From IMG/VR virus record IMGVR_UViG_3300006802_000037, positions 1 to 37,551 of that record: 37,551 bases of DNA. The stretch is one strand, 5' to 3'. Shown here in pieces: positions 1 through 37,551 of this stretch; position 1 is the first letter of the stretch; each line of letters begins with the position of its first letter. Source of the DNA: a virus. The notes beneath the pieces were generated by a model. That model searched no databases. It had not been told where the DNA came from and saw nothing but the letters and a program-made list of their open reading frames with translations. The position numbers were made by a program, and so were the translations under genes.

Positions 1-123
1 GACTTCTATTTTTTCAGGCTGGGCGTCGGGGGACGTAGCCCAAACTGTCCGGGGTTCTCGCAAGCCTTATCAATAATCGCTCTAATTAGAAAGCTCATGT
101 TTCCCTCTGTATTGACTGCAGCC
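1..123. repeat. Terminal direct repeat, left copy (circle joint)
   Basis: These 123 bases are identical to 37429-37551. Exact identity at the two ends of an assembled sequence is the usual sign of a closed circle or a terminally redundant genome. The repeat lies inside a gene (the ribbon-helix-helix protein), so it is most simply an assembly overlap and not a biological terminal repeat. Unique length is then 37,428 bp. Confidence 0.95.
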
Positions 124-12130: not shown

Positions 12131-15100
12131 ATGGCTAATTGGTGGGACAGTGTCAGGGACTGGTGGATAGGCGACGAAGATGAGCCGAAACCAGACAGTA
12201 ACGCAGTTGCGGATCTGGCCAAAGTTCAACAAGAGCATTTATTGAACGAGTGGAGACAGGCGATCTCCCCGTCTATATCTCCTGTACAACAGCGTAGTGA
12301 TCCGTTTGAATCGGCGTTGGCGCAATGGCAGGGGACGCGCGCCGTACAGGGGCCACAACCGAGACCTATGCAGGGACCAGAGCCGAAACCCGAAACCGCG
12401 CCGACCGTCGATCCGTGGTCGGCGGCGGTTAATGCCTGGCGCGATGGGCCTCCGGTATACAATCCGTTGTCGAGCGCCAACGCTGGTAGCATAAAGCCAC
12501 AAGCGCCGTCGCTCAATCCGTTCACGTATGATGTTGCACCTCCCCAGCAATCTCAGGTTGGCTACAGTTTTGATCGCCCAGATACGGGGGTGACTGGTCT
12601 ACAACAGACTGCCTATGGCGGCGATACGCTTTCGTCTGCCCTAGCTCAGCCTAGTCAGTGGAAACCGCTGTTAGTTGATGATCTAGGGATACAGAGCGGG
12701 TATAACGCTCCACAGCGCCCAGGCGGTTTCCTGCAGAACGTAATGGACGTTGGCCCGGTTGATGCTACGATAGCCGCGGTGTTTGGCAATACTCCGGGCT
12801 ACGATTATCTTGTAGACACCTACAACCAACAAAAAGAAGAGGGAACAAATAGAGGATGGGACGCCTTTAAGGATGACTTTTGGACTAGCCTGACGGCGCT
12901 GAACGTGCCAGGCAAGGCGATAGAGTCGACGGCGATCCCAGGTACAGCGGCCATTGCAGACTTCCTGACCAACAATGATACAGGACAGCAGGCAAAAGGA
13001 AACGTATCGCTTGGTCAGCTCGCATCGGCGTTTGGCGAGGCCGTAAACAAAACACTGAACCCGTTCAACCCAAACCAGGTTGACATGTCCTACTGGCAAC
13101 TGTGGCAGGATAAAGGCAAAACGATGTGGGACATTTTCTCTAATAACCTAAACAGTTCTAGGCTAGTCAGGGAAACGATCGAGAGTCTGCCAGAGGATCA
13201 ACGAACTGCCGCAAACGTGGCGCTAGTCAATATTATTTCCGGGCCGAATGCCGTCGAGGCTGCCGCTAATTCTATTCTGAACCAAGCTCAGAACGTACAG
13301 GTTTTGTACAGTAAAGCGGATGATGCGCAGAAAGCTGGCGACTTTGCGGCGGCGGCGGAGTATGGTAGACAAGCCGACGAACTCAAACGGAAAAACAAAA
13401 CGGATCTGGTTGATGAGCCTGCTAACGTGTGGGCTGAATTGATGGGGGGTATATTCCTAGATCCAACAAACTGGTTGCCTGCCGGGTGGACAAAAGAAGC
13501 TGCCGAGGCCACTAGGGCGGCTCGTCTGGCGGCTATGGGCGAAGATGAGGCGGTGGGTGTCCTGTCTAAGGCGGTGGGCGGATCCGCGAACAATCCGCTT
13601 ACATGGGCTGAATGGTTGTCACATCCCCTGGAATCTGGATCCACTTTGTATAAGGAAATGATCGGCGATGCTCCTGCCTGGCTTTCCTACATAAACCCCG
13701 CGAATCTATTGAAGCGTACGCCAGAGACAAACGCCAGGCTATCAACAGACGTGTTGTTTCGTGTGGCTTCTCAGCTAACATCGGGGGTTGGCGATAGGGC
13801 AGCAGCGCGGGCATTGTTAGATACATGGGCGACAACTCCCCAGGATTTGGTTAGGGGCGTTGTGATCCCAGGTCTGGAAAAGATTGCCGATACTGATGGC
13901 ATCGTTAAGTTTGGCCCTGGATTTTTAGCCAACCCGGAACTGATCGAGCATTACCCTGTTCTTGCGAGCGCTAGGGATTCGATAGCCCAAATGGCTAGCC
14001 TGGCGGGCGATGCACCACTAAACCCTATAGAGTTCCTGTCAGAGTTTAATGACGTTGTATTTAAGGTGGCGCGATCTGCAAACGGTCTCGATGCTCTTGC
14101 CGAACTACCGGGGGGAGCGGCTAGTTTTCGCCTGGCGCGTACAGAGCTAGGGTTATCGATTGTTGAGTATCTGGACAAGGCGGGGAAGGTCGTCAGTAAA
14201 AGCAACGAGATGTTGCCCTATGATGCGCAACTGTTTGTCAAGAAACTAGACAACACCACAAAAGCAGCGGGTGAGACAAACCCGATCATGAGAGCATGGG
14301 GTACGCAGAAAGCGATCCTATCTGACATGTACTTAGGCATGTCCCCAGGATACTGGATTAAGAATGCCCTGAGTGCAACGGCTACATTGCTGACGGACAA
14401 TACCTATACATTACTGCCCACCAGGGGCATACTGAACGATCTGGGGATAAAGTTTGGCGTAGCCCCAACATCTAGATCGCTTGATGCGGCCATGTCTGCT
14501 GCAGGGTCGGCTGCGATAGAAGCTATGGGCGGTGCGTCGCACTGGTCTGAACGTGTGTTAGGTGCAAATAATCTGTATGCCAGGCTGATGAATCGGTTAT
14601 ACAGTGTGCCGTTTGGCGCTACAGATATAGCCGGATCTGTTCCGTTTGGAGAACAGAACTTTGCATTACGCGCCACCTACGTTCCGTTCAAGCGGTATCT
14701 CTCAGAGAACTGGAAGTGGGCTACGTCTGGTTTTGGCGATGCGCTAAGGGGCATGGGCATCGATGATAATCTAGTCAGGAGTCTAACGGGGATAGTCTAT
14801 GAGGCCGGGGTAAATGGGAACAAGCAGCAGGTTGCGGAGTCAATGAGACAGGTGGTTGCTCGCTCGACTGTTCCATACACGCTGAATGAGCTTGGAATAC
14901 CTGATGAGCTAATCAGCGCAGAGGGCTGGAAAAAGCTTAACGACGTTTTTACATCTGCCCTGCCTGGACAGATCGATGACGCTATTGCAGAGATTAAATC
15001 TGTGTTCGGTGAGGAAATCCGGCGCGCAGGTGAGATACTAAACAGCGCACCACCCCAGCCATCACGGGGCATGTGGACAGATTTTGAGTCTGTGCAGGAT

Positions 15101-18100
15101 GGTGCAGACGTTATAGACTCGATGGTTGACGCAGCTAAGCGGGCCGGTATGGACGCAGGGCAAGCTACGCAACGGGCCGAACAACTCATGCAACAGACTA
15201 TGCAGGCAGAGCGCCATCTTTGGTCAACGTTCCGCGGTGAGGTGGCCCAGAGTACAGATCCGAACGCTCTAAACGTAGCTATGGATCTGCTTGCAAGGTG
15301 GTACGACTGGCGCAAAATGGCGCGTGCGCAGGTTGACGATCTGGGCAAAGCTGCCGCTCAAGTCAATACGCCAGAGGCATGGGCCAAAAAGTGGGAGGGG
15401 ACTGGTAGAATCTATGGCGAGTTTACTGACTGGTTTGGATCTGTTGTAGATGAGGCTAGACAGGATCTACTAAAGATTTCTTCAGGGACGCCTGTAGAAC
15501 AACGCTACAATTGGATGGACGTGATCCAGCGGTATGTAGACTACGATGAGCCATACATTCGACGTACGCGGACAATGGGACTAGGGAGCGTGCAGGATGC
15601 TGGCAGCGCGTATGACGAGGTCATACAGGCAAACCGTCAATATGTAGACAAATCTTTTGTCGAGTTGTTTAGCTCATTTCGCCGGTATCCTACCCAAGAT
15701 TCGTTAGATCTGATAGCTGATGGTGTGCGCAAGGTGGAAACGATGGGGGCACAAGCCGCGGCGTTTCTGGCGAGCAAGCGCGCCGAACTGCTTCCCGGTC
15801 AAGCGTCTGTCTACCACCAACTAAGAAATAAGGTGTGGTCGGAATTCTTTGATAACTCCGTTGTTATGAACAAGATCACGCAGCGGCAAGTAGTTTTTAA
15901 CGGTCTGGCGCAGCAGTCTACGAACGGTCTACGGTGGGTGGATGAGTTTGCGGGCGGTGAGTTCCGTTTGGTCGGCAAGGATGACAAGGGGTTTTGGCAA
16001 GCAGTCAATACAGCCACAGGGGCAACCGAACGGTTTGTCGATCCGGTGGATCTGTCTAAGATGAAAAAAGAAAAGGTGGTAACATCTTCGTTGCCATCTG
16101 TTCCACCTAACATTATACAGGAGTTTTACCGGCTGACGGGATCATCAACAGAAGCGGTAGACGATCTGATAAAGCAGATCGATGCGGACGCTGCCGCTAG
16201 ATATGCGCGCCAAGAGGCTGAAATGATGGCGTTGCTAGATCAGCCGGTGCGCGTTCCTACGATGCATTTGGCGGGCGAGTCTGTAGAGACAGCAGCTAAG
16301 CGCGAGGCTGATAAGATCGTTCAAGAGATCGATGCGGCAAAAGAAGCGTTGTCTACGTTGCGGACAGAATGGGACAAGGTCGCTCGTGCCGGGCGTGGCT
16401 ATTTGAAATTAGAAAATGCCGTAGGGTCTTACGTTAAGAACGGTGTAGCCAACGTCCCGGAAAACAAATTTGAAGATCTCTATGGGCTGACGGTTGCCGG
16501 TCGTCAAATTGATAACCAGGATGATGTAAACGCCCTGTTACAGGAGTATTACGAATTACGACAGCTGGTCAGGGGTGGGCGATCTCCGGTAGACCAGGCT
16601 ATAGAATATGCGTTCGATCCGCTCGATCTGATGGATGATGCGATCTCCGGTGTAGATGATGTTGCTTCCGTCTCTCCTGCTACTCTTTCGGATGTAGTAG
16701 AATCCGGTGTCTACAACAAGATGAGCGCAAGGGAAATAGTGCAGCACGTTGCAGACAATGAATTACTGCCTGATATTTCCCAGGTAAAGGGAATGGGTCG
16801 GACAAAGTTGCTAGATTTCCTTCGCAACTATGTAGCGCCCATGACGAAAGATCGTCATAAGCTAGCAAGCACGATAGAGGGTTTAAACTGGTTTGGGCTA
16901 GTAAATGCGGAGTCCGATCTGTTTGAGGTTATTCAGGGCATGAATAATAACCTATATAGCCTAGCAGGAAATAAAGCGCCAGAGATGGGGGACGTAGCGC
17001 TACACCAGATTAGAACACTACAGGACGCATATGGCCGCGTGATCGCAAAACTACCGGAGATCCTAGAAGGTAAACCAAACAGGATGACGCCAGCGCAGCA
17101 GGTTAGGGTTCTGGATGAACTAAACAGGATACTCCCTCAGTACGATGACATCTTAGCGGGTGCTGTCCAGGTCGGGGAAAAGATGGGCAACTTTGCTATG
17201 TTGAACTATGGCGATAAGCGAAACCTAGATCTACTGTTAGGTGCTGTTTTCCCGTATCATTACTTCTGGTCTCGATCTGCGAAAAACTGGCTTCGTCGCG
17301 TTGCGTCTAAGCCGGGCGTTGTTAACTTCTGGTATGAATCGGAGCGGGCTATAGATCTAGAAAACGAGCAGAACGATCTGCCGCAACACCTCCGCGGTAC
17401 ACTGCCCAACCCATTGCCGTTCGGCCCTGACAGGATAGGCAACCCTCTCACCTACGCATTGCCGTTTGCTATGTATATGATGGGTAACGAGTTTGTAAAT
17501 CCAGATGACGCGAAAAGTGAAGCGGAGCGCTGGATTATGAATGTGCAGAAGTTTACGCCTGGTCTTTACCCATTAGCTGATTACGCGTTAAAGGCTACGC
17601 TGGATCAACAGGCCCCGTTACCGGGTGGTCGGCGTCGGACAGATGCGATCCAGTTGGGTGATTTCCTGCCGTTATATCGTCTAGGTGGATATGCCCGCCA
17701 AGCGGCCACAGGGGAGATGGGGCCACAGGGGCCACTTGCCTACGGCGACGAATATGATCTAGGGCGAGCAGGGAAACAGGTGGGACTGTCTGCTATGCGT
17801 GGGGATACGGATCCAGACGCGGCCATGTGGGGTACGGATGTTGGTTACCAGCTACAGACAGGATCGTCGGCATTGCCGGAACAGGATCCGGGGGCGGTAG
17901 ACGCCTGGCAACAGGGCGCTCAGCAGGCTGGCGCAGAGCGACTCACTAGTCGCGCCATGTCGTTTTTGCTGGGGGTTCCTGGCTACTATCTAAGCGAAGA
18001 AGAAAAGAGGGTTCGCCAGATGAAAGGCGAGCGCGTAGGGTTAGGCTATGGATCGAGCAATCCATATGGTAGTAGGGCAGCGGTAGACGAGTACACCGGC

Positions 18101-20545
18101 ATGGGCGGCGATCGATTCGAGTCAACGTTTAATTACTCGCAGCTTTATCCAGCGGGCGACAATCGCAAGCGAGCGAGGCCGGGGGAGCGCGCCGCGCAGT
18201 CACAGTATTATGACGAGTTTGGCGGCATTATGGACAATATGAACATGTCCGTCACTAAGTTTCTATTAGAGAACCCTGAAGCTACAAGCAAGGAGTTGAA
18301 CGATCTCAAGTCCCCCTATTGGGATGAGGTTGAAGAACTCAAATCCCGTTACCCATCCCTGCCAGAGATTGACAGGAACAGGGGTCTTAATACTCGATAT
18401 ATGAATCCCGCAGAGCAGGCGCAACAGTGGGTAGAAAAGACGGTAGGTTATAAGCCACCGGGGAAACCGATCTATCCTGGGGTAGACGCTAGTGTCGAAG
18501 ATAAGAAAGCCTATTATCTAGCAAAGGCGGAGTGGGACTATAAGAGACTTGATCATATCGATCGAACCTTCTCGCAATTTCTCGCGTATAACGATGAGTA
18601 TCCAGACGCATGGAAAGAACAGGCGCGGGGCATGGTCGAAAAAATGTACGCATCTGAACTATTACGCGGCTATGATAACCGATTTGCGGGGGCAGTAGAA
18701 AAGGCATGGGATGATCGACAAAGCTTTGTGGAAGAAGTAGAGGACGCCGAATGGCAGTATAAAGAAAAGGCGGTTGTTGACAGACTCGGCAAAAGAGCAT
18801 ACAGATTGATACAGGAGTATTACGCCCTACCTAAGGATAGTGACGAGCGTCGACAATTCAAGGATGCTCACCCCCTACTAGATCGGGCGTTTATGGCTAG
18901 CTATCATCCAGAAGAGTACGACAAATTTGTCGATCTCTTTGGCGCAAGCGCTTTTGATATGGTTGCGCAGAAGCCTGCCCACCCTGGGGACGGGGCCACA
19001 GAGGATCAGCTACAGTCGTACTATGAACAAATGAACGCCTACACCAAAGCCAACCCAAACGCCGAGGCGGCTAGGCTCTGGCTAAACGGTCGGCGATTTG
19101 GCGCGGCAGAGGGGAGCGATAGCTATGGGAAGGCCTATGATGAGGCGGTCTCTATTTTTGGCCCAAACATCTTTGATATTCTCAATAGCTTCCCCAGTGG
19201 CGGCACAAAAGAACAGCGGGCAGCGTGGTACAGGTCGCACCCAAAAGAGAACATGCTACGCTCTGGGTATATGGAATGGAAAAAGGAGTTCCAGGACAAA
19301 GACAAGGCTAGCGTTGAAAATGATCGGACGGGCACAAAAGACGGATCTGTTAGCAATGCTGACGCAGGCGAGGGATACACAGGGCCGCGTCCCGTTGGTA
19401 GCAATAGGCAGCCGATAGGCAGTTTTGATCCTTTGATCCCAAGTCAACCGAGCAAATGGGCTAGCTACAATTGGGATACACTACTGGATCAGCAGGCCGT
19501 CAATCCCTGGACACAGCGCGCAAATGAACTAAATGCCGGTATCCTGGGCGGAGCGTCCGTGCCTGGTGAGATGAGCGCGGCCACAGATCGGGCGACGTAC
19601 AACCCGTTATCATCTGCTGATTACCGATACCAAAGGTCGGGAAGCAAGCCAGCGTCCAGCGGTGTAGCTGGTGAGCCTAGTATGGACGTGGCGCAAAAGT
19701 ACGCCATGATGGATGAGAATTACGTCAAGGGCGAGATGTCTCGACAGGAATGGGCGGCGCGTCGCGGTTCACTGGTGGAGCGTTTCGGATCCGATGCCGG
19801 CAGTATATGGGATGCATATTATAATCTGCCTAAGGGAGAGAAGCGCAAGGAGTACATTGCCGATCACCCTGAAATGAGAGTGTATAACCTAGCAGCATAC
19901 AACCCTGACGATTTCGCTACAGCGTCCGATCTTTTCGGTCAAGATGCCATTATGGCATGGGCGAGATCACCGCGTTATGAGGATACGCCAGTTGCCAAGG
20001 CGGCGCGATCCAGGTACTGGGACGACAATCCAAAGGCGTTCCTTTTTCATTCCTGGTTGAATGGACGCCCAGCAAACAACAGCGAGGGCGATCAGGGTGG
20101 CGATTTTAAGTATAACCTTGGTGCAGACTACTCTGCAGCCAAAGATCTCTTTGGTGATAACATATGGAACATTGTTGAGTCCTATAAGCGCGGATGGGAT
20201 AAGGTTGCCAAACGATCTTTCTTCGAAAAGTATCCGCAACTGTCTAAGTTTTTTGACTGGTGGTATGGCGATACTGAGTCCGCGTCTACGACAGGGGGCG
20301 GGCGAGCAAGCGGCGGCGGCGGTGGTGGGCGTGGATATAGCCCGTCACGTTCTGGCAGTCGGACAGTCGTAAATATCCAACCCGTCTACGCCCAACCGAT
20401 GGCCAGAGGACTGGCAGAGCCACCGCGGATTACGGGTTATCAATCGGCGGGGATCAATGATCGTTGGCTGGAAGCCGGGCGAAACCTATCACCCGGTAAG
20501 CCTAAGGAATGGAGCCCGACGTGGATCAGGGGGTTGCGAGTATGA
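12131..20545 (+). CDS. Giant 2804-residue virion-associated protein
   Basis: One uninterrupted frame covers 22% of the genome. Residues 1-170 are Pro/Gln-rich. The centre is mostly helical with Trp-rich patches; two motifs recall large phage multidomain proteins: YLGMSPGYWIKNALSATATL (near 737) and LLLGAVFPYHYFWSRSAKNW (near 1700). The C-terminal part holds a duplicated module of about 160 residues, 2222-2386 and 2556-2714. Shared words are YYALP/YYNLP, HPLL/HPEM, DLFG and F/W-LNGR. YNPLSSA occurs near both ends (about 114 and 2495). QPVYAQPMARGL near the end recurs in the next gene. There is no P-loop, polymerase or lytic-enzyme motif that I can see. Lying between portal and scaffold, it is probably packed in the virion and ejected. 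Confidence 0.8.
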   Translation: MANWWDSVRDWWIGDEDEPKPDSNAVADLAKVQQEHLLNEWRQAISPSISPVQQRSDPFESALAQWQGTRAVQGPQPRPMQGPEPKPETAPTVDPWSAAVNAWRDGPPVYNPLSSANAGSIKPQAPSLNPFTYDVAPPQQSQVGYSFDRPDTGVTGLQQTAYGGDTLSSALAQPSQWKPLLVDDLGIQSGYNAPQRPGGFLQNVMDVGPVDATIAAVFGNTPGYDYLVDTYNQQKEEGTNRGWDAFKDDFWTSLTALNVPGKAIESTAIPGTAAIADFLTNNDTGQQAKGNVSLGQLASAFGEAVNKTLNPFNPNQVDMSYWQLWQDKGKTMWDIFSNNLNSSRLVRETIESLPEDQRTAANVALVNIISGPNAVEAAANSILNQAQNVQVLYSKADDAQKAGDFAAAAEYGRQADELKRKNKTDLVDEPANVWAELMGGIFLDPTNWLPAGWTKEAAEATRAARLAAMGEDEAVGVLSKAVGGSANNPLTWAEWLSHPLESGSTLYKEMIGDAPAWLSYINPANLLKRTPETNARLSTDVLFRVASQLTSGVGDRAAARALLDTWATTPQDLVRGVVIPGLEKIADTDGIVKFGPGFLANPELIEHYPVLASARDSIAQMASLAGDAPLNPIEFLSEFNDVVFKVARSANGLDALAELPGGAASFRLARTELGLSIVEYLDKAGKVVSKSNEMLPYDAQLFVKKLDNTTKAAGETNPIMRAWGTQKAILSDMYLGMSPGYWIKNALSATATLLTDNTYTLLPTRGILNDLGIKFGVAPTSRSLDAAMSAAGSAAIEAMGGASHWSERVLGANNLYARLMNRLYSVPFGATDIAGSVPFGEQNFALRATYVPFKRYLSENWKWATSGFGDALRGMGIDDNLVRSLTGIVYEAGVNGNKQQVAESMRQVVARSTVPYTLNELGIPDELISAEGWKKLNDVFTSALPGQIDDAIAEIKSVFGEEIRRAGEILNSAPPQPSRGMWTDFESVQDGADVIDSMVDAAKRAGMDAGQATQRAEQLMQQTMQAERHLWSTFRGEVAQSTDPNALNVAMDLLARWYDWRKMARAQVDDLGKAAAQVNTPEAWAKKWEGTGRIYGEFTDWFGSVVDEARQDLLKISSGTPVEQRYNWMDVIQRYVDYDEPYIRRTRTMGLGSVQDAGSAYDEVIQANRQYVDKSFVELFSSFRRYPTQDSLDLIADGVRKVETMGAQAAAFLASKRAELLPGQASVYHQLRNKVWSEFFDNSVVMNKITQRQVVFNGLAQQSTNGLRWVDEFAGGEFRLVGKDDKGFWQAVNTATGATERFVDPVDLSKMKKEKVVTSSLPSVPPNIIQEFYRLTGSSTEAVDDLIKQIDADAAARYARQEAEMMALLDQPVRVPTMHLAGESVETAAKREADKIVQEIDAAKEALSTLRTEWDKVARAGRGYLKLENAVGSYVKNGVANVPENKFEDLYGLTVAGRQIDNQDDVNALLQEYYELRQLVRGGRSPVDQAIEYAFDPLDLMDDAISGVDDVASVSPATLSDVVESGVYNKMSAREIVQHVADNELLPDISQVKGMGRTKLLDFLRNYVAPMTKDRHKLASTIEGLNWFGLVNAESDLFEVIQGMNNNLYSLAGNKAPEMGDVALHQIRTLQDAYGRVIAKLPEILEGKPNRMTPAQQVRVLDELNRILPQYDDILAGAVQVGEKMGNFAMLNYGDKRNLDLLLGAVFPYHYFWSRSAKNWLRRVASKPGVVNFWYESERAIDLENEQNDLPQHLRGTLPNPLPFGPDRIGNPLTYALPFAMYMMGNEFVNPDDAKSEAERWIMNVQKFTPGLYPLADYALKATLDQQAPLPGGRRRTDAIQLGDFLPLYRLGGYARQAATGEMGPQGPLAYGDEYDLGRAGKQVGLSAMRGDTDPDAAMWGTDVGYQLQTGSSALPEQDPGAVDAWQQGAQQAGAERLTSRAMSFLLGVPGYYLSEEEKRVRQMKGERVGLGYGSSNPYGSRAAVDEYTGMGGDRFESTFNYSQLYPAGDNRKRARPGERAAQSQYYDEFGGIMDNMNMSVTKFLLENPEATSKELNDLKSPYWDEVEELKSRYPSLPEIDRNRGLNTRYMNPAEQAQQWVEKTVGYKPPGKPIYPGVDASVEDKKAYYLAKAEWDYKRLDHIDRTFSQFLAYNDEYPDAWKEQARGMVEKMYASELLRGYDNRFAGAVEKAWDDRQSFVEEVEDAEWQYKEKAVVDRLGKRAYRLIQEYYALPKDSDERRQFKDAHPLLDRAFMASYHPEEYDKFVDLFGASAFDMVAQKPAHPGDGATEDQLQSYYEQMNAYTKANPNAEAARLWLNGRRFGAAEGSDSYGKAYDEAVSIFGPNIFDILNSFPSGGTKEQRAAWYRSHPKENMLRSGYMEWKKEFQDKDKASVENDRTGTKDGSVSNADAGEGYTGPRPVGSNRQPIGSFDPLIPSQPSKWASYNWDTLLDQQAVNPWTQRANELNAGILGGASVPGEMSAATDRATYNPLSSADYRYQRSGSKPASSGVAGEPSMDVAQKYAMMDENYVKGEMSRQEWAARRGSLVERFGSDAGSIWDAYYNLPKGEKRKEYIADHPEMRVYNLAAYNPDDFATASDLFGQDAIMAWARSPRYEDTPVAKAARSRYWDDNPKAFLFHSWLNGRPANNSEGDQGGDFKYNLGADYSAAKDLFGDNIWNIVESYKRGWDKVAKRSFFEKYPQLSKFFDWWYGDTESASTTGGGRASGGGGGGRGYSPSRSGSRTVVNIQPVYAQPMARGLAEPPRITGYQSAGINDRWLEAGRNLSPGKPKEWSPTWIRGLRV

Positions 20546-23961: not shown

Positions 23962-25800
23962 GTGGCTGCACCGTCGATAGTCACCGGTCATACAACAAAA
24001 TACGATACATCAAATGTAACGAGTAGAGACATTAACGCGCCTACCCATAGCGCGGGCGATGTTATCTATATCGTGGCGTCATATGATGCAAACAGCGGGA
24101 CGTTCACGACGCCCAGCGGCTTTACCGTGTTGTTTGATAATCTACCGTTTCTGACTAGTGGTAGTTCTAAGGTCGGCGTGTTTGGCGCATGGTACAAAAC
24201 CGCTGGGGGTAGCGAGCCGTCTGCCTATACGATAGAGACATCACCCAGTGAGCGGGCGGCCATTATCGCATTTGCTGTTACTGGCGACGGTGGGATCGAT
24301 GCATCTGCAGACACAAACGGCGATAGCAGCACGGCCACGATCCCAGATGTAACAGCCAGTGCGTCAAACGGTTTGCGGATCGGCGTGATCGGGTGCGATG
24401 CCACTAGCAACACGTCACCGCATGGGACGCCTGCCACGTTTGACGCCACGTTGGCGGAGTTTTTCGCTACGTCTGCCGGCGCGATCAGTGTTCACTACAA
24501 AGCGCTGGCGAGCAGTGGATCGGATGGCGATAGGACTGCATCTCTCAACGCTACAGAACAGTGGGTCGGTGTTAGCTGGATCATCAAAGAGGTGGTGGGC
24601 GGCGGCGTGTCTGTTACGCCAGCGTCGGCAAACAGCACTTCTTCATCCGTAGCGCCAACGGTGGTGTTGGGAAGTATATCGGTATCGCCCAGTATAGCCA
24701 GTGAAACATCTTCCGCTATAGCGCCAACGGTGGTGTTGGGAAGCTTGTCACTGTCTCCGAGTGCTGCCAGTTCTGCAACGGCGTCTACTGCACCAACGGT
24801 GATCCTGGGCGGTATGTCGGTATCTCCGAGTGCTGCCAGTTCTGTATCTAGCAGTATAGCGCCGACAGTCGTACAGGGTAGTCTGTCACTATCGCCCAGC
24901 ATAGCCAGCGCGGCGGCTAGTGGTGTAGATCCAACGGTGTCTATAACGGGCGGCGCAATTATCCCCAGCGCTGCCAGCGCTACAGCGAGCGCCGTAACGC
25001 CATCGGTTATACATGGTAGCCTGGCGATAACTCCAGGATCTGCAGATGCCACGTCGAGCGCCATAGCGCCGTCTATTGTGCTAGGCAGCGTGGCTGTGTC
25101 TGCTTCGTCTGCAGACGCCACAGCAAGCAGTATAGCGCCAACGGTGGTATTGGGAAGCCTATCATTATCACCCGGCATTGCCAGCGCGGCGGCTAGTTCT
25201 ATAGCGCCAACGGTTATACAGGGGAGTCTGTCACTAACGCCCAGCGTAGCCAGCGCGACGGCTGGCGCTACCGATCCGGGGGTTCTGGCTCCGATAGCTG
25301 CTGACGCAGCGAGCGCTATAGCTGGCGCGACTGATCCAACGGTGATACTAGGGAGCCTGACGATAGCTGCTGACCCTGCTGGGGCCACTGGGAGCGCCAC
25401 AGGGCCATCTGTTGTGCTAGGCAGTGTGATCCTATCGCCAGCGTCTGCAGACGCCGTGGCGGGCGTTGTAGCGCCCCAGGCGATAATGGGGAGTCTGGCG
25501 CTATCGCCTGATGCTGCCAGCGTAGTGGCTAGTAGTATCGCGCCAACGGTGGTGTTGGGCAGCACGGTGGCCACGCCTGGCGCGGCTAGTGCGGTGGCGG
25601 GTGCAACGGATCCGGGGTATCTGGTTCTGTTTATAGCGGTGTCGTTAACACTGCGCAGTCGTGCGCTAGGGTTGACGTTGAATAGTAGATCGCTGGATCT
25701 GACGGTAAACGATCGTGATTTGGTTTTGACATTAAACAGTAGAGACCTTGGGCTATCGCTCAAGGATCGTGACTTGAGCTTGACGCTCAGAAGTAGGTGA
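23962..25800 (+). CDS. Repeat-containing surface/fibre protein with two tandem repeat types
   Basis: 612 residues with a GTG start behind AGGGG. Residues 1-212 form a jelly-roll-like beta domain (SAGDVIYIVASYDANSGTF, GFTVLFDN). Residues 213-555 are about 15 tandem units of 21-24 residues with consensus SLSLSPSAASATASSIAP then TVVLG, entirely small and hydrophobic residues, no aromatic and few charges. The last 52 residues switch to six 9-residue repeats (LTLRSRALG, LTLNSRSLD, LTVNDRDLV ...), alternating hydrophobic and charged, fitting a beta-roll or stacked sheet. Probably a fibre or spike shaft. Repeat number is likely to vary between relatives by recombination of the 69-bp units. A long antisense frame here is a by-product of the repeats. 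Confidence 0.75.
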   Translation: MAAPSIVTGHTTKYDTSNVTSRDINAPTHSAGDVIYIVASYDANSGTFTTPSGFTVLFDNLPFLTSGSSKVGVFGAWYKTAGGSEPSAYTIETSPSERAAIIAFAVTGDGGIDASADTNGDSSTATIPDVTASASNGLRIGVIGCDATSNTSPHGTPATFDATLAEFFATSAGAISVHYKALASSGSDGDRTASLNATEQWVGVSWIIKEVVGGGVSVTPASANSTSSSVAPTVVLGSISVSPSIASETSSAIAPTVVLGSLSLSPSAASSATASTAPTVILGGMSVSPSAASSVSSSIAPTVVQGSLSLSPSIASAAASGVDPTVSITGGAIIPSAASATASAVTPSVIHGSLAITPGSADATSSAIAPSIVLGSVAVSASSADATASSIAPTVVLGSLSLSPGIASAAASSIAPTVIQGSLSLTPSVASATAGATDPGVLAPIAADAASAIAGATDPTVILGSLTIAADPAGATGSATGPSVVLGSVILSPASADAVAGVVAPQAIMGSLALSPDAASVVASSIAPTVVLGSTVATPGAASAVAGATDPGYLVLFIAVSLTLRSRALGLTLNSRSLDLTVNDRDLVLTLNSRDLGLSLKDRDLSLTLRSR

Positions 25801-28442: not shown

Positions 28443-30698
28443 ATGACAGGACATATAAAACTAGGGGACGTTGGGGATCTACGCGACTACATGATCGCCG
28501 ATATGCGCAGCTATGTAAAATCACCGGCAAACCAGTTTGCGGCAAAGCTGGCGACGGGGGCGGGGAACTATGACGATCTGCAGAATTGGTCATACTGGGT
28601 TATGGATAATTGGCAAGCGGGCGTTAGTCAGAAGGACGCGGACGCGGGCGGATCCCTGTATAGTGAGCTAGAATCGCGCTACCCTAACGAACTACGATTA
28701 CCCAGGCCGCTAACGTTCGCATATCATCTATCCGGCACATACGAAAATGGTTTTGCCGGATCCACTGCAGTTCCAACGGATGAAATCACGATCGGTACTA
28801 CACAAGCCGTTCACCGACTGGCGCGTCGCATCTATTGTACTGCAGCGGCACCGCGGATCTACGTCAAACTGTGGCTGCCACATGATAACAATTGCACAAC
28901 GGTAAAGGTTGCAATTTATTCGGACAGTGCTGGATCGCCAAACGCCCAGGTGTTTTCTAATACGTTTGACCTAGATCCAAAAATTGGATACGGTGATTAC
29001 ATTGTGCCGATGGTTTACAGTACTAGCGCAACAACCTACTATCATATCGTCATACTCCCCTATAATGATGGCGAGACGCTGCGCGTACCTATATCCACAA
29101 CCGGCACTAGTAATTTGTTTTTCACCTACAATGGATCGACGTGGGCGTCCACTACAACAAGCGCATTTATTCATGAGGTGCGCGGTTATTTTTCCGCCGA
29201 TAATCAGACGCATGCAATCAAATTTTTTACGGCTTACGATAAGCTGATCGGCGGGATGGAGAACGCGATCCGCGCAGAGAACACCGACCTAAACGGATGG
29301 ACAACATTATCAACCCTGGCTTCTGGAGACATCACCGATTTGCTAGAGCTAGGCGATACGATGGTCGTAGGGCAAGGCAACGTCCGTGCCCTGTCTACGA
29401 TCGATTCCGTTGGGACAGTCACGGGTGGTAGTGTGTCCGCCAATCGGCTAGCCTATTGGAATGGCTATGTGTGGCGGAGTGACGCCAATGAGGTGTATTA
29501 CTCAGCGGACATGGTCACCTGGACGGGGCCGATCGAGGTATGCGCCAGCGGGTTTCAGGTGCGCGGTATGGCTGGGCTAGGCGATCATCTCTATGTGTCC
29601 TGTGATGACGGTCTATACTATATTGGCTATGGTGATTTTGTATTTCGTGTTACGTCATGGGGCGGAGTCGATAGCACAAATGGCGAGCATATGATTAACT
29701 ATCATGGGAATTTAATCATCGGCGTGGGTGAGTCCATCTTCCAGTTTGATGGCCAAACCATGTTGCCCATAGGACTGGATCTCAAAGAGGGGATCCCAGC
29801 TAATTACTCCGGCACGGTGGCGGCGCTGGTCGCGAATAATAACTGGTTATACTGCGCGATCACATCTAGCAGCACACAGGGACAGGATACGATTTGGGCA
29901 TATAACGATCAGGGATGGCATTTCATCGCAGCGCTTCCGCCGAAACCGTATGGCCCTACCATCCTATCGATGTGCTACCAGCGCGACGCAAAACAGCTAC
30001 ACATTGGGACAAACTTCGGCCACGTGTATTCTGTCTATGCGCCAGACGTGGCGCGCGAATCCACATTGGCTAGTGTCTATGGCAGATACAAACACTACGG
30101 ATGGCTGGAAACCGATTGGTTCTATGGTGGGCTGAAAGAAGTACAGAAGGATTTCGAATCGGTGTATGTTTCTGGCGAGAATTTTAGCGCAACACAGTAC
30201 GCTGAAATCTACTGGCAAGATGATGATTCGACTGACTGGGAACTATTGGGGACTGTCACCAGTGACAGACAGGAGCTCCGTTGGTCTAACTACACCACGC
30301 GCCCAAACAGCAGACAGATAAAGATTGGCATCGCCATGTATGGCGAGTCGCTAACTGCATCGCCGATGATCCATGCGGTCCGGGTAAAATACCATCCGAT
30401 GGTGTCTGACTGGTTCCGCTGGTCGTTCCCTATCCTGGTCAGTGATCGACAACAGGAGATCGATCACACCATATCAAGCTATAGCGCGTACGAAAAGCGG
30501 CTACACCTGGATAGTCTCATCACACAGGTTCCGCCATTCATTCTTCAGGACATCGACGGTGAAACGCAGTATGAGGTAAAGGTTATGGGCTGCCAGATCC
30601 AGGCGTCCAACTACGAATGGATCAACGGATCGCCAGAGTTTGACTCTATCTATAACATAACCGTAGAACAGGTTCGTAATGGCACGTACGAAGCTTAA
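28443..30698 (+). CDS. Large beta-propeller-like tail protein (nozzle/hub)
   Basis: 751 residues. The middle (about 280-540) has repeated four-stranded blades: GDTMVVGQGNVRALSTID, GYVWRSDANEVYYSADMVTW, GDHLYVSCDDGLYYIGYGDF, GNLIIGVGESIFQFDG, NNWLYCAITSS, KQLHIGTNFGHVYSV. Such spacing is that of a beta-propeller, as in the nozzle of T7-type tails. The C-terminal third (ESVYVSGENFSATQYAEIYW, IHAVRVKYHPM, ILQDIDGETQYEVKVMG) is the beta-rich platform common in tail proteins. GAGG lies 5 bases before the ATG. Together with the adaptor it supports a short tail; a tail-hub role in another morphology is the alternative. Confidence 0.7.
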   Translation: MTGHIKLGDVGDLRDYMIADMRSYVKSPANQFAAKLATGAGNYDDLQNWSYWVMDNWQAGVSQKDADAGGSLYSELESRYPNELRLPRPLTFAYHLSGTYENGFAGSTAVPTDEITIGTTQAVHRLARRIYCTAAAPRIYVKLWLPHDNNCTTVKVAIYSDSAGSPNAQVFSNTFDLDPKIGYGDYIVPMVYSTSATTYYHIVILPYNDGETLRVPISTTGTSNLFFTYNGSTWASTTTSAFIHEVRGYFSADNQTHAIKFFTAYDKLIGGMENAIRAENTDLNGWTTLSTLASGDITDLLELGDTMVVGQGNVRALSTIDSVGTVTGGSVSANRLAYWNGYVWRSDANEVYYSADMVTWTGPIEVCASGFQVRGMAGLGDHLYVSCDDGLYYIGYGDFVFRVTSWGGVDSTNGEHMINYHGNLIIGVGESIFQFDGQTMLPIGLDLKEGIPANYSGTVAALVANNNWLYCAITSSSTQGQDTIWAYNDQGWHFIAALPPKPYGPTILSMCYQRDAKQLHIGTNFGHVYSVYAPDVARESTLASVYGRYKHYGWLETDWFYGGLKEVQKDFESVYVSGENFSATQYAEIYWQDDDSTDWELLGTVTSDRQELRWSNYTTRPNSRQIKIGIAMYGESLTASPMIHAVRVKYHPMVSDWFRWSFPILVSDRQQEIDHTISSYSAYEKRLHLDSLITQVPPFILQDIDGETQYEVKVMGCQIQASNYEWINGSPEFDSIYNITVEQVRNGTYEA

Positions 30699-31227
30699 GC
30701 GGATGAAGCGGATCCCTGGCGGCAAACGTCGTCGATTACCGACGTTGACCGGCGCGGATCCGAAAATTAGCGAGCGAGCGCCCGACGCGTTGCAGAGTTT
30801 GATCGCCGATCTTGGTGGATCAACGGACGATATAAAGCTAGCCAAGCAGGTGCTGAAGCTGAAGACGGATTTTCCTGCTGCCAGTATCCCGGAGCTAGTC
30901 GTTTACGTCTGGTTACAAGCGCATGGCATCCCGTTCGAATTTCAGGCCATGCTATACGGTGGGCGGCGGTCAAAAGGTGGGCTTGTGCCTGACTTTGTCC
31001 TACAGTATGGTAGCAAGGGGATGGCGTGGCAGGTAGAAGGGGAGTACTGGCATAGGCAGGACAGCTCACACGGGCAAAAGGATGCCACTGTCAGATTACG
31101 CCTACTGGGCGCTACGTATAAGGGCATCAGAATTGACACGGTGGTTTCTCTATGGGAGAGGGACATTTACAGGAAAAGGCCCACCGTGTTTTTACAAGCT
31201 CTTCTTGGGATAGGATTGCGCGGATGA
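30679..31227 (+). CDS. PD-(D/E)XK nuclease-like protein
   Basis: 182 residues, start 20 bp inside the previous gene. After a very basic N-terminus (KLKRMKRIPGGKRRRLP), residues 60-165 fit the restriction-endonuclease fold: SIPELVVYVWLQAHGIPFEF, GLVPDFVLQ (Asp), QVEGEYWH (Glu) and a helix KDATVRLRLLGATYKG then VVSLWERDI. The PDF...VEGEYWH series is the D...E-x-x metal-binding signature of Vsr/DUF559-type nucleases. A role in DNA processing or resolving packaged DNA is possible. It is coupled by ATGA to the CHAT protease, so the two may act together. Confidence 0.65.
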   Translation: MARTKLKRMKRIPGGKRRRLPTLTGADPKISERAPDALQSLIADLGGSTDDIKLAKQVLKLKTDFPAASIPELVVYVWLQAHGIPFEFQAMLYGGRRSKGGLVPDFVLQYGSKGMAWQVEGEYWHRQDSSHGQKDATVRLRLLGATYKGIRIDTVVSLWERDIYRKRPTVFLQALLGIGLRG

Positions 31228-31946
31228 GAGTATTGTTAGTCGCGCCAAGGAGTGACCTAGAGAATCTAGATACAGAAGTATCTGCTATTCTGCGCAGCGG
31301 TCTGGATGTAGTTCCGCTACTAGGGAACATTACCCACGCCGATCTAGTCAGAGAAACAGAACAAAGTAGCTACGATATTCTATGGGTGTTAGCTCATGGA
31401 AGCAAAGGGGGGATCGTTTTATCAGACGGCATTTTACCATCTTCACTGCTGACAAGTCTGATCCGTAATGCCGGTTTTCGTCTCGTGGTACTGAACACCT
31501 GTGACAGTATTAACACTGCGCAGATGTTACAGAATGAGACAGGGGCCGAGGTGATTGCCACGATCGGGGATGTAGATGACAGTACAGCATATCAGACCGG
31601 GGCGCTATTCGCCAGGGCGCTGGCCACAACCCGGTCGATACACAGGGCGTATAGGCAGGCTAGGCCCGGTGGGAATGATAGCTATGTCAGATTGTCTCCC
31701 GATGGCGGCGCTATTGTTAGGGTAGGTGGTAAATTGACTGACGAGATACATGAGTTGGTCAAGGCGATCTATGAGCTAAAACAGGAGATCGCCTTGCTAA
31801 AACTGAGATTGGAAGCGATAGAAAAATTCGAAGCGCCAGCGTCGCAGCTTAGCCGCTATTTTGCAGCGATTGTCACCATGCTGATCGTTATCTCGGTTTT
31901 GGCTGGGATGGGGCTGTATCTGCTAGCCACAGGGGGGATAGCATGA
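31224..31946 (+). CDS. CHAT-type (caspase-like) protease with C-terminal membrane anchor
   Basis: 240 residues from the ATG at 31224 (ATGA overlap); a frame start at 31152 lies inside the previous gene. Residues 1-150 fit a CHAT/caspase-like fold: MRVLLVAP, then SYDILWVLAHGSKGGIVLSD with catalytic His58, then FRLVVLNTCDS with catalytic Cys93, then EVIATIGDVDDSTAYQTGAL, typical of the family's last strand and helix. A coiled coil (about 172-200, HELVKAIYELKQEIALLKLR) and one TM helix (about 212-232) follow, leaving a short exposed end. In bacteria, CHAT proteases act in death and defence pathways by cutting a partner. It overlaps a 3-TM gene, its natural partner. Catalytic activity is inferred from the His-Cys pair. 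Confidence 0.75.
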   Translation: MRVLLVAPRSDLENLDTEVSAILRSGLDVVPLLGNITHADLVRETEQSSYDILWVLAHGSKGGIVLSDGILPSSLLTSLIRNAGFRLVVLNTCDSINTAQMLQNETGAEVIATIGDVDDSTAYQTGALFARALATTRSIHRAYRQARPGGNDSYVRLSPDGGAIVRVGGKLTDEIHELVKAIYELKQEIALLKLRLEAIEKFEAPASQLSRYFAAIVTMLIVISVLAGMGLYLLATGGIA

Positions 31947-32290
31947 CGCTACGTGATTTTACGGCCATACTCTATCCTGTGCTAGCTGCGACGGCGCTAC
32001 TACAGTCTGGAATGACGTTTTTGTTTTGGCGTATACGCCGACCAACGGACGTAGTGATCGCCCTGGGCATATACTTCTTTACTGTGTTTATTACGTTTAG
32101 CATATTGGCGTTCCAGGTTGGTGGCAATCGCGTCGGGCATAGTGAATGGTTTCCCTACATGATCGTGTCGTCGCGTGTGTTGATGTTGATGTCGATGTGG
32201 TTCCACATGTGGCAATACTGGCGCAGGATGCGGGAAGACAATGCGATAGAAAAAAGAGATCGGGGATCTCCATCGGATCCCCGATCGTAG
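31943..32290 (+). CDS. Three-TM membrane protein, partner of the CHAT protease
   Basis: 115 residues, ATGA overlap with the protease gene, GGGG upstream. Hydrophobic helices at about 9-28, 36-57 and 73-92 with basic loops (WRIRRPT; QYWRRMRE), then a charged tail EDNAIEKRDRGSPSDPRS. Size and topology suit a holin, a pore former or a membrane partner cleaved by the protease, but no family is recognised. It is the last gene of the late operon. Its final codons also encode the terminator of the converging leftward operon (32250-32286). Confidence 0.7.
   Translation: MTLRDFTAILYPVLAATALLQSGMTFLFWRIRRPTDVVIALGIYFFTVFITFSILAFQVGGNRVGHSEWFPYMIVSSRVLMLMSMWFHMWQYWRRMREDNAIEKRDRGSPSDPRS
32250..32286 (-). 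terminator. Terminator of the leftward operon, inside the end of a rightward gene
   Basis: GATCGGGGATC (32258-32268) / GATCCCCGATC (32276-32286), perfect 11-bp stem, 7-nt loop. Read on the minus strand it is followed by TCTTTTTTCT, so it works leftward. The bases also encode the C-terminus of the 3-TM protein. Confidence 0.8.
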
Positions 32291-33172
32291 CTATCTGCCG
32301 TGACCGTTCGTTGTCGGTGCTGACAACTCCGGTAGCCTGGTAGAAATGGCAGACCAGCGGCGACCATCCCGAAAAACTCTTCCCTGTTCTAGCATCTCGT
32401 CCAGGTCGCGCCGAATCGTTTTGTCAGACACGGCACTACCCAACAGGCGGGAAATTTCCGTGATCGTAGTCGGGCCATTTTCGGACAAAATATTGGACAT
32501 TTCCAATTGTCTTTTCTGAATTTTGTCCAAAATTTTGTCCACTTTTTTGTCCAGTTTCCCGGACGCACCAGTGGTTATGTCCAAAATTTTGTCCACTTTT
32601 TTGTCCAAAGAACTGGACATTTTTGTCCCAGCTGTCCTTCGTTTTGTCCAGTTTTTCCCGGACATTTCAGGCTGCCGATCGTGCCAACGTTTCAGCCCGA
32701 TGGACAGAAAAGCGCACAATGATATAACTGGCAACCATGCCATGATCGGGTGTCCATTGCTGGCCGTCTCGATGCTGTATACCAGGCCGATGATAATACT
32801 AACGCCCACCAATAGAGACAGAACAGTGAGCGAGAATGGCAACAACCACTTACGCCCATTGTTCAACCATCCGTCAAACAGGTATAGGGATAACTCCACC
32901 AACTCAAACACCGCAATTTCTACCACAACCGCGAACGCGAACGCGGCCACGGGGCTGAATCCTAACTGCACCTGACTGATTTTGTACACGCTGATCGCAT
33001 TGGGCAGCGGGGCTGCAATTGCGATTGCCCGCGCTGCGATCTCCACCGTGTAATCTGCCGTGGATGTAACTATAAAATAGACCAGATGCAAAACGGATTC
33101 CCAAAAGCGTTTTAGGATCTTTACCCAGTCGTAGACATTATCCCCTGCTAGATCGATCGATCTGATTTCCAT
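32291..33172 (-). CDS. Membrane-anchored winged-helix protein
   Basis: 293 residues, AGAGGGA before the ATG. Four hydrophobic helices lie in residues 25-160 (for example AAFAFAVVVEIAVFELVELS, LLPFSLTVLSLLVGVSIIIG). A polar linker holds two copies of LDKKVDKILD 18 residues apart. Residues 228-282 (ILSENGPTTITEISRLLG, SDKTIRRDLDEMLEQGRVF) form a DeoR-like winged helix. This arrangement puts a DNA-binding domain at the inner membrane face. The N-terminal part recalls the membrane proteins (DUF2637-like) that accompany FtsK-type transfer ATPases in actinobacterial elements. It could tether phage DNA to the membrane or regulate genes from there. Last gene of the operon; its stop abuts the converging gene. 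Confidence 0.7.
   Translation of the reverse strand: MEIRSIDLAGDNVYDWVKILKRFWESVLHLVYFIVTSTADYTVEIAARAIAIAAPLPNAISVYKISQVQLGFSPVAAFAFAVVVEIAVFELVELSLYLFDGWLNNGRKWLLPFSLTVLSLLVGVSIIIGLVYSIETASNGHPIMAWLPVISLCAFLSIGLKRWHDRQPEMSGKNWTKRRTAGTKMSSSLDKKVDKILDITTGASGKLDKKVDKILDKIQKRQLEMSNILSENGPTTITEISRLLGSAVSDKTIRRDLDEMLEQGRVFRDGRRWSAISTRLPELSAPTTNGHGR
32525..32607. repeat. Tandem GTCC-rich repeat within the winged-helix gene
   Basis: A 29-base block is identical at 32525-32553 and 32579-32607 (period 54 bp, 18 codons), encoding the LDKKVDKILD duplication. TTTTGTCC or its complement occurs about ten times between 32480 and 32670. Identity at silent positions suggests recent duplication or selection on the DNA. 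Confidence 0.85.
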
Positions 33173-33196
33173 TGTGTGTTCCCTCTATCTATATCA

Positions 33197-33298
33197 CTAA
33201 CGCCGACTGTCAAGCCAACGCATAAACCGTAACCCGGCATATGCACCTAGTCCAACTGATGCCAACATAACCACTGTTGTTGTGATCGCCTCTAGCAT
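33197..33298 (-). CDS. 33-residue single-TM protein
   Basis: Starts at 33298 behind an excellent GGGAGG site 7 bases upstream; the longer frame back to 33493 is not needed. MLEAITTTVVMLASVGLGAY continues to AGLRFMRWLDSRR: one TM helix and a basic C-terminus. It overlaps the end of the preceding gene by 7 bp. Small single-TM proteins next to FtsK-like ATPases recall the Spd proteins of actinobacterial conjugative elements, but this is analogy, not sequence match. Confidence 0.65.
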   Translation of the reverse strand: MLEAITTTVVMLASVGLGAYAGLRFMRWLDSRR

Positions 33299-33645
33299 GT
33301 TATAACCTCCCATGCAAAAAACATTCTGTAGTTGCCAAATTGCCACGTCGTTAGCCAACGCCGATCCGTCGATAATCGGCGACGATCCGTCGCGCATCGG
33401 CGACGATCCGATAATAGCCGATGATAGAACAATGTTGCACCTATCCATAGAACACCGATAGCCAGCCACCCGGCAGCATCTGTTAGCAGACAATGGGCCA
33501 TGTCATTTCCTAGCACACAAAACAGAACTGTCAGGAGTGTAACAGCAGACGTTCCTGTCCAACTATCTAGCAGACCTGTCTGCCTGGCAGATAGCAGTAG
33601 GATCACCGATAGGGATATAGTAGCGATCATGATTGTCATGTTCAT
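33292..33645 (-). CDS. Small membrane protein with basic tandem repeat
   Basis: 117 residues, GAGGA 9 bases before the ATG, 2 bp after the ATPase stop. Hydrophobic helices at about 4-19, 33-50 and 57-75. Then comes LLSDRRRCATDRRRLSTDRR, three repeats of an (S/T)DRR unit, the DNA of which repeats the word CGACGATCCG. A third short hydrophobic stretch closes it. Function unknown; it belongs to the membrane-protein cluster following the ATPase. Confidence 0.65.
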   Translation of the reverse strand: MNMTIMIATISLSVILLLSARQTGLLDSWTGTSAVTLLTVLFCVLGNDMAHCLLTDAAGWLAIGVLWIGATLFYHRLLSDRRRCATDRRRLSTDRRWLTTWQFGNYRMFFAWEVITC

Positions 33646-33647
33646 GT

Positions 33648-35216
33648 TTAGTTGTCCTCACCTGCTATCTGTGACACAATCTCCCGGTATTCCGTCAGCG
33701 CCTTTTGGTATCGTCTGCCACCAGTAGCGCCCCATATGTCGCGCAGTATGGCATTTTGTGAACAGCCATCCTCCATCATTTGCCGTACACGCGCAGCCGT
33801 GGCGCTGTCTGGAAGTACTTCCGCGGGTACTTCCAGAGTACTTCCAGAGCACTTCCCGATCCGTGTGGAAGTGCTTCCCGGAAGTGGTGCGGAAGTACTT
33901 CCCGGAAGTGGTGCGGAAGTACTTCCCATAGGTGGTGCAGGCAAGATGGAAGTACTTCCGGTATGCCAAACATTTTTGCCGTTTAGCGACGTGCAGATCG
34001 CCTCTAGATCCTGTTGGGTGCAGTTGGGTACAGCCAGACGTTTCATCTCTCCCGATGGCGGTAGCCATACACACTGCCCGATCTGTAGTTTCTCCGCCGC
34101 TTTTCCAAACTCCGCGTTGCCACTCTGCACCCTTGCCACGTCGCGACGGCTACGCATGGCGATCATGCTAACGAAACTGTTGCGCACGGTTGTATCCATC
34201 ACGCTCCCGTTAAAGCTTTGCCCGATACACATCGCGTAAACGCCAACCTTTCGCGTTTCCTGGCTGATCTTTCCTAGTACCATAGCCAACAATGGCGCAA
34301 TGTTGGATCGCTGTAACAGCGCGGTGGTTTCGTCCACCACTAGAATCATCGGCGATCTATCCTGATCCCTACCGGCTAGTCTCCTGGCTCCGACCGAATC
34401 TACATAGAACAAAGCGTCCGTCATTCCTTTATCGTCGTGTGCTACGTCAAACAACAGACGATTGCCCAGCGGGTAGAGCGACGCGCCCAGGCTCTCATCG
34501 CCGCTATCGTAGTGCGGATCCAGCACAATGAATTTTCCGCCCTGCATTGCGGATTGCGCCAGGATTGATCGGATCAGCGTGGATTTTCCTGTACCAGACA
34601 TCCCACCGATTAGCGCGCTGTATAGGTGTCTCCAGTTGGCGTCAACCGGCTCATTGTCGTCTAGGTTGTATCCCATGAGGAAACCATCGCGGGGCAACCG
34701 GTTTGTTCTCCATAGTTCCGATAGACTATCCACAGATACAGATTGCAGTAAACCGGCCACGTCTGCACCAGGCAATAGGGATCCGTCCTGCTTCACCTGG
34801 ATCCGCGGCGAGTATGATAGGCTATGCGGTACAGTAGCGGGTTCGTTTCGGTTAGACCAGTGGAACGCCATATGGGATTTTATGGCCGCGTCGGATCCGC
34901 TGGCAGATAGTAAATAACGTCCATCAACCGGTAGTAGCCCGTTAGGGTCTGGCGCAACTAACTGCACGCGCAGTTCTAGATCCCGACGTTCCAACGCGTG
35001 TTGGCTGTGTTTGTGCTGCACCCATCCGAGCAAAAAGTACGCGCCGATGAACACGGGGAGAGACACGAAACCTATAATGATATTCATCACCAGGTCAACA
35101 CCAAAAACGTCCAGTGACATATTAAACAGGTAAACAACGCCCATAGCAACCATCGCCAGGGCAACCAACCCGATAACTATACATCCAACCATGAGTTGAT
35201 TTTTTGTGTCATTCAT
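33648..35216 (-). CDS. FtsK/SpoIIIE-type membrane DNA translocase
   Basis: 522 residues from the ATG at 35216 (GAGGAG 8 bases upstream). Two TM helices at about 8-30 and 38-60 anchor it. The motor domain shows Walker A GGMSGTGKST (Lys211) and Walker B MILVVDE (Asp295, Glu296), then GVYAMCIGQSFNGSVMDTTV and RNSFVSMIAMRS, the usual FtsK/HerA blocks. A GSTSAPLP repeat linker (from about 415) leads to a C-terminal HTH-like domain (DGCSQNAILRDIWGATGGRR, YQKALTEYREI), which would recognise DNA. Such proteins pump double-stranded DNA through membranes in conjugation of actinobacterial elements, or in chromosome segregation. It is unusual in a small tailed phage. Small membrane-protein genes flank it. 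Confidence 0.85.
   Translation of the reverse strand: MNDTKNQLMVGCIVIGLVALAMVAMGVVYLFNMSLDVFGVDLVMNIIIGFVSLPVFIGAYFLLGWVQHKHSQHALERRDLELRVQLVAPDPNGLLPVDGRYLLSASGSDAAIKSHMAFHWSNRNEPATVPHSLSYSPRIQVKQDGSLLPGADVAGLLQSVSVDSLSELWRTNRLPRDGFLMGYNLDDNEPVDANWRHLYSALIGGMSGTGKSTLIRSILAQSAMQGGKFIVLDPHYDSGDESLGASLYPLGNRLLFDVAHDDKGMTDALFYVDSVGARRLAGRDQDRSPMILVVDETTALLQRSNIAPLLAMVLGKISQETRKVGVYAMCIGQSFNGSVMDTTVRNSFVSMIAMRSRRDVARVQSGNAEFGKAAEKLQIGQCVWLPPSGEMKRLAVPNCTQQDLEAICTSLNGKNVWHTGSTSILPAPPMGSTSAPLPGSTSAPLPGSTSTRIGKCSGSTLEVPAEVLPDSATAARVRQMMEDGCSQNAILRDIWGATGGRRYQKALTEYREIVSQIAGEDN
33811..33959. repeat. Cluster of GGAAGTACTTCC palindromes in the ATPase gene
   Basis: Perfect 12-bp palindromes at 33811-33822, 33891-33902, 33915-33926 and 33948-33959, with several half or altered sites between (such as GAGTACTTCCAGAGCACTTCC). 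The palindrome encodes Gly-Ser-Thr-Ser on the minus strand, and two 24-bp units give the GSTSAPLP repeat. Either a repeat-driven protein linker or a binding array within the gene. Confidence 0.85.
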
Positions 35217-35239
35217 ATTAGTGTCTCCTCTGTCCCAAG

Positions 35240-35392
35240 TCATTCGCGCATGTCCTCTATTAACCTGCATTCGCCGTCGATTACGATCCACTCCTGCCGA
35301 TCCATGTCCTTAGCCGCTGATGCCAGTAACAACAGATGCACGGGGATGGACGCCACCATCCCGATGATAATCCCGATCACTAGCATTTCCAT
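35240..35392 (-). CDS. 50-residue single-TM protein
   Basis: Starts at 35392 behind AGGAGG 4 bases upstream. MEMLVIGIIIGMVASIPVHL then LLLASAAKDMDRQEW and an acidic tail: one TM helix, with the remainder probably in the cytoplasm. It lies 23 bp upstream of the ATPase start and 27 bp after a terminator-like hairpin. Likely a subunit or regulator of the ATPase. No family recognised. The strong ribosome site makes this small gene credible. Confidence 0.65.
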   Translation of the reverse strand: MEMLVIGIIIGMVASIPVHLLLLASAAKDMDRQEWIVIDGECRLIEDMRE

Positions 35393-37428: not shown

Positions 37429-37551
37429 GACTTCTATTTTTTCAGGCTGGGCGTCGGGGGACGTAGCCCAAACTGTCCGGGGTTCTCGCAAGCCTTATCA
37501 ATAATCGCTCTAATTAGAAAGCTCATGTTTCCCTCTGTATTGACTGCAGCC
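37429..37551. repeat. Terminal direct repeat, right copy (circle joint)
   Basis: Identical to 1-123. It carries the C-terminal 39 codons of the ribbon-helix-helix gene, which is complete only in the left copy. A TG dinucleotide run (37411-37420) stands just before it. Confidence 0.95.

Follow-up and report, generated by a model that had tools for sequence, protein, structure and literature searches.

A late-gene pair of a putative CHAT protease and a small membrane protein as a possible lysis-control module in dissimilar phages

What does a caspase-like protease do at the end of a phage late operon, next to a small membrane protein and in a genome with no recognisable lysis gene? The question is raised by the IMG/VR record IMGVR_UViG_3300006802_000037, of which positions 1 to 37,551 (37,551 nt, one strand) were analysed and are referred to here as the window. 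A preliminary description of this DNA had placed the two genes "in place of a lysis cassette" and had suggested a role in lysis or, alternatively, in the exclusion of other phages. The features at issue are the following.

1..123 and 37429..37551, no strand: copies 1 and 2 of a perfect direct terminal repeat of 123 bp, read from the sequence
30679..31227, plus strand: upstream gene for a Vsr/PD-(D/E)XK-like nuclease of 182 aa (weak Vsr match, E=0.087), overlapping the protease gene by 4 bp
31224..31946, plus strand: CHAT (caspase-like) putative protease of 240 aa with ATG start, C-terminal helical linker and membrane anchor (Pfam, AlphaFold/Foldseek, five homologs)
31224..31697, plus strand: CHAT catalytic domain, residues 1-158 (His and Cys invariant in 6/6 sequences and aligned with 8tl0)
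31395-31397, plus strand: codon CAT of His58, read from the sequence
31500-31502, plus strand: codon TGT of Cys93, read from the sequence
31737..31826, plus strand: helical linker, predicted coiled coil, residues 172-201 (AlphaFold helix of moderate confidence)
31848..31928, plus strand: predicted membrane anchor helix, residues 209-235 (AlphaFold helix; hydrophobic segment score 2.48)
31943..31946, plus strand: ATGA stop/start overlap of 4 bp coupling the protease and partner genes, read from the sequence
31943..32290, plus strand: predicted three-helix membrane protein of 115 aa with a short basic loop after helix 1 and a charged C-terminal tail (AlphaFold; no family match)
32258..32286, minus strand: hairpin with an 11-bp stem followed by a T-run, which terminates the minus-strand gene converging on the late operon and marks where this operon ends, read from the sequence

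The genome and the end of its late operon

Because the same 123 bases stand at both ends of the window, the window is very probably a complete genome of ~37.4 kb, with an integrase, a RepB-like primase, a terminase, an SU10-like capsid and tail genes identified by Pfam and PHROGs. The integrase matched only two plasmid records, from Leptolinea (44%) and Herpetosiphon, both Chloroflexota, and for this reason the host is probably a member of the Chloroflexota; bacterial genomes scanned with the CHAT proteins yielded no relative, so hosts are not readable from prophages. Two proteins are encoded on the minus strand at 32291-35291: a HerA/FtsK-like ATPase and a membrane protein whose C-terminus carries a DeoR-like HTH. 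Since these two proteins, together with the RepB-like primase and the integrase, look plasmid-like, the genome is possibly that of a phage-plasmid. The linker of the membrane/HTH gene contains tandem 12-nt repeats (TTTTGTCCA...; LDKKVDKILD repeats) at 32509-32631, and the 612-aa tail protein of the window has 69-nt tandem repeats at 24581-25589.

The gene for the three-helix protein is the last rightward gene of the window, and the protease/partner pair is co-oriented with the structural genes; no sigma-70-like promoter was found on the plus strand between 30000 and 33000. The upstream 182-aa nuclease has a homolog (34% identity) at the same place, the end of the structural operon, in a related contig, G003, where no protease follows it.

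Pfam gave no match to an endolysin or other muralytic enzyme, a spanin or a holin among the main ORFs of the window and ten smaller ones, an absence that is not by itself proof, and PHROGs gave no lysis match among the twenty window proteins scanned. Attention had been drawn beforehand to a 2804-aa protein, encoded at 12131-20545 between the portal-like and capsid genes, as a possible site of a concealed endolysin; one was sought there with Pfam, PHROGs and the PDB and was not found. This protein has no match in PHROGs, NCBIfam or the PDB and none above the cut-off in Pfam. The corresponding place is taken by a 3306-aa protein in G003 and by a 2288-aa protein in L003.

A CHAT-fold protein coupled to a predicted three-helix membrane protein

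The window gene at 31224-31946 encodes a CHAT-fold protein with conserved catalytic His and Cys residues, a putative protease. Pfam CHAT scored 28.1 bits against a curated cut-off of 24 (E=1.8e-6), and the AlphaFold model, with a pLDDT of ~90 across residues 1-140, places the catalytic His and Cys at the ends of core strands (E52-60 and E87-93). With this model as query, Foldseek returned SAVED-CHAT (8tl0) as the best PDB match by orders of magnitude (E=5.4e-9), caspase-6 also falling below 0.001, and a further whole-fold match to A0A1P8DJ94 (E=1e-13). A profile built from five family members retrieved a single PDB sequence, again SAVED-CHAT (E=3.4e-5), with the His and Cys motifs aligned, while the CHAT part of PADLOC BovA matched the protease with E=5e-7. 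Among the six sequences His58 and Cys93 never vary, although identity to the catalytic domain of the window drops as low as 45%; the residue following His58 is not always glycine (HA in L016, HM in L028).

The phage protein thus shares its fold and motifs with the SAVED-CHAT protein of type III CRISPR systems, but it lacks the SAVED sensor domain and instead possesses a helical linker, a predicted membrane anchor and a membrane partner. It likewise resembles the Craspase TPR-CHAT of type III-E CRISPR systems, a CHAT protease with a His-Cys dyad (PMC9729208), from which it differs in being membrane anchored and in lacking the TPR part and CRISPR genes. Identity as a type III CRISPR protease effector was rejected, the 240-aa protein having neither a SAVED nor a TPR sensor part; no Cas family was among the Pfam matches of the window proteins.

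The partner was modelled as three long helices with a mean pLDDT of only 70, and at this low model confidence it has the size and topology of a class I holin. As in holins of the lambda S type, a length of ~100-120 aa is combined with three membrane helices, a charged C-terminal tail and an N-out/C-in orientation expected from the charges; the window protein nevertheless has no detectable sequence relation to these holins, and its immediate gene partner is a protease rather than an endolysin. Pfam, PHROGs and NCBIfam contained no holin family that matched it, the protein alone as query found no relatives, and its model as a fold query gave no meaningful match. A Pfam match to a succinate dehydrogenase membrane subunit (E=7e-4, below the cut-off) was dismissed as membrane-helix similarity. 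No other small protein with several membrane helices is encoded by the rightward late genes of the window. Genes for bacterial gasdermins frequently neighbour those for caspase-like proteases, in some cases with a lysozyme or amidase close by (PMC9612521). The phage pair shares with them the juxtaposition of a protease gene and a membrane-acting partner. The phage partner, however, is a small protein modelled as three helices, not as a gasdermin fold, has no gasdermin family match in Pfam, and is encoded among phage late genes.

Much of the preliminary description is borne out by these results. It had reported a CHAT protease with His58, Cys93, a coiled coil and an anchor, for which the Pfam score, the 8tl0 match and the AlphaFold helices now speak, the structure prediction it had proposed having returned the CHAT fold. 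The ATGA overlap with a three-helix protein, the position of the pair at the end of the late operon, and the lack of a recognisable endolysin, spanin or standard holin elsewhere in the window were also correctly described.

Relatives of the module and an A run within it

Scans of IMG/VR identified five further viral contigs with the protease (G001/L002, G003/L004, G004/L016, G005/L018 and G006/L028); at the protein level, the CHAT proteins matched nothing in annotated collections of phages and plasmids. The catalytic domains of the relatives are 45-53% identical to that of the window; the G003, G004 and G005 homologs exceed the Pfam CHAT cut-off, and that of G001 falls below it at 18.8 bits. 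A small membrane protein is encoded directly downstream of the CHAT gene in all six phages, window included. It is a three-helix counterpart of the 115-aa protein in L002, L016, L018 and L028, and a 44-aa protein with a single membrane helix in G003/L004. The module lies at the end of the tail operon in the window and in G005/L018, and upstream of the terminase in the other four, both of which are classic places for a lysis cassette. It is always among the late genes, on the same strand as the structural genes, and never in a lysogeny or early region.

Judged by their sequences, the carriers are different and otherwise dissimilar phages. The capsid type of the window is shared by G003 (35%) and not by G001, and long tape-measure-like proteins are present in G001 and G005; despite its window-type capsid, G003 has the protease at another place and with the single-helix partner. 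An FtsK gene lies near membrane-protein genes in G001. Among distant members the protease domain is conserved while the anchor/tail and the three-helix protein have diverged, the latter to only 13-24% identity with the window's, as is expected if anchor and partner coevolve. Between G004/L016 and G006/L028, dN is 0.16 for the protease, 0.18 for the tail and 0.14 for the three-helix protein, with synonymous sites near saturation; dN/dS is ~0.12 for CHAT and 0.10 for the tail, dS of the three-helix protein being saturated. By these estimates all three parts are kept under purifying selection.

Four relatives carry a run of 10, 10, 10 and 9 A (L002:10478-10487; L016:2408-2417; L018:8467-8476, approximate; L028:6285-6293) exactly at the junction between the CHAT domain and the coiled-coil/membrane tail; it is absent from the window and G003. 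The run has exactly ten A in G001, G004 and G005, in three different codon phases, and nine in G006, where only a slip would bring the tail into frame. It is the only A/T run of at least eight in the G004 and G005 records, the latter 64% GC, and the longest A/T run in those of G001 and G006. Given the amino acids and the codon usage of each record, the chance of a ten-A run is 0.15 in G001, 0.005 in G004 and 0.04 in G005. A one-base slip from the full-length frame would, as read from the sequence, lead to a stop within ~20 codons and so to a soluble protease. Slippage on nine consecutive A is known, for example, from Thermus dnaX (PMC1088944). The run in these phages is probably a programmed slippage site through which both a soluble and an anchored protease are made. 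The G006 tail is under purifying selection although out of frame, so it is expressed by slippage or from a start of its own, barring an assembly error in the A9.

In L028 the gene order is a GH-M23 endolysin-like gene, CHAT, the three-helix gene and then a gene for a 77-aa holin-like protein with two membrane helices. The 559-aa M23 protein matches Pfam M23 (E=4.9e-26) and several PHROGs endolysin families, and its gene ends in a TAATG overlap where the protease gene begins, an arrangement of translational coupling. G001 has a counterpart of the 77-aa gene with 54% identity, located a few genes downstream of that phage's own CHAT/three-helix pair. G001, closed by a 127-bp terminal repeat, has an alginate lyase after the pair and no endolysin detected by Pfam. 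The L028 pair is thus found in what reads as a lysis-like neighbourhood, added to an endolysin-like gene and not replacing it, although the proximity of tail-fibre genes means that both the L028 M23 protein and the G001 alginate lyase could belong to the virion.

Lysis control weighed against exclusion and other roles

We give an even chance to the reading that a late, membrane-tethered caspase-like protease controls a holin-like partner, the two forming a lysis-control module. It is suggested by the small membrane protein downstream of every CHAT gene, the lysis-cassette positions, the L028 gene order and the purifying selection, by the partner being the sole small multi-helix membrane protein of the rightward late genes where no other lysis gene was found, and by the frequent neighbourhood of bacterial gasdermins and caspase-like proteases. 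Against it stand the low identity of the three-helix proteins and their lack of a holin family match, the possible virion origin of the M23 protein and alginate lyase, the different place and partner of the G003 protease, the chance that an endolysin escaped Pfam, and the 2804-aa protein without a family match. The protease domain would project into the cytoplasm, an environment that permits thiol protease activity, and the partner would lie N-out/C-in, as does a class I holin. The tethered protease would, late in infection, cut the partner or a nearby lysis protein, and cleavage would release or time membrane permeabilisation, much as caspase-like proteases activate gasdermins; a separate wall enzyme, as in L028, would complete lysis in hosts needing one.

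The wording "in place of a lysis cassette" is too strong: no lysis gene was found in the window, but L028 has the pair plus an M23 gene. The proposed role in lysis gains from the recurrence of the pair in unrelated phages at lysis-cassette positions and from its coupling to the GH-M23 gene in L028, but not as a general replacement of the endolysin. A survey of the pair in related phages lacking an endolysin had been suggested as a check; G001 has the pair and no endolysin by Pfam, and L028 has it directly beside the M23 gene. Solitary proteases in unrelated positions had been named as evidence to the contrary; in none of the relatives does the protease lie away from the late genes or lack a small membrane protein behind it.

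The main rival is superinfection exclusion or abortive suicide, since it is chiefly in defence that CHAT proteases have been described. Here a tethered protease would sense a second phage, either in a lysogen or at a late stage of infection, activate the membrane partner and kill or close the cell, functionally like RexA/RexB or a caspase-gasdermin defence. The BovA match, the SAVED-CHAT protein as nearest structure and the gasdermin partners of such proteases all fit this reading, as do the integrase, which means that the window phage may be temperate, and the movement of the module between unrelated phages with a fast-diverging membrane partner. We nonetheless consider exclusion unlikely, because the pair overlaps and is co-oriented with late genes without a detected promoter of its own, never lies in a lysogeny or early region, has no sensor domain fused or adjacent, and in L028 is coupled directly to a lytic enzyme gene. 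The RexA/RexB pair of phage lambda is likewise a two-gene cytoplasmic and membrane module in a phage, but RexA is no protease, and Rex expression comes from the prophage instead of a late operon.

Two further readings do without control of a holin. The anchored CHAT protein might cut a host membrane or division protein, with the three-helix protein as membrane cofactor or immunity partner and an unrecognised enzyme performing lysis; a conserved protease domain beside a diverging anchor and partner that matches no holin family would suit this, yet the strict gene coupling and the lysis-type positions are left unexplained, and we judge it quite improbable. More improbable still is a catalytically dead CHAT fold serving as a scaffold or regulator, such as an antiholin-like brake: the variable residue after His58 is in its favour, whereas the invariant His and Cys and the strong purifying selection speak against it.

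Returning to lysis control, the proposal in its widest form, that phages, probably of Chloroflexota, trigger or time lysis by a caspase-like protease acting through a small membrane protein, and that several of them adjust the balance between soluble and membrane-anchored protease by slippage on a dedicated run of 9-10 A where the two domains join, is tentative and somewhat doubtful as a whole. No paper linking CHAT proteases to phage holins was found among those searched. Bacteria are known to use pairs of a caspase-like protease and a membrane-acting protein for suicide and defence. That phage late operons contain a pair of this kind, in one case flanked by endolysin-like and holin-like genes, suggests that viruses may use the same logic for exit; the converse, gasdermin operons mimicking holin-endolysin pairs, has been noted in reviews (PMC9612521). 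The module offers a small, directly testable two-gene system.
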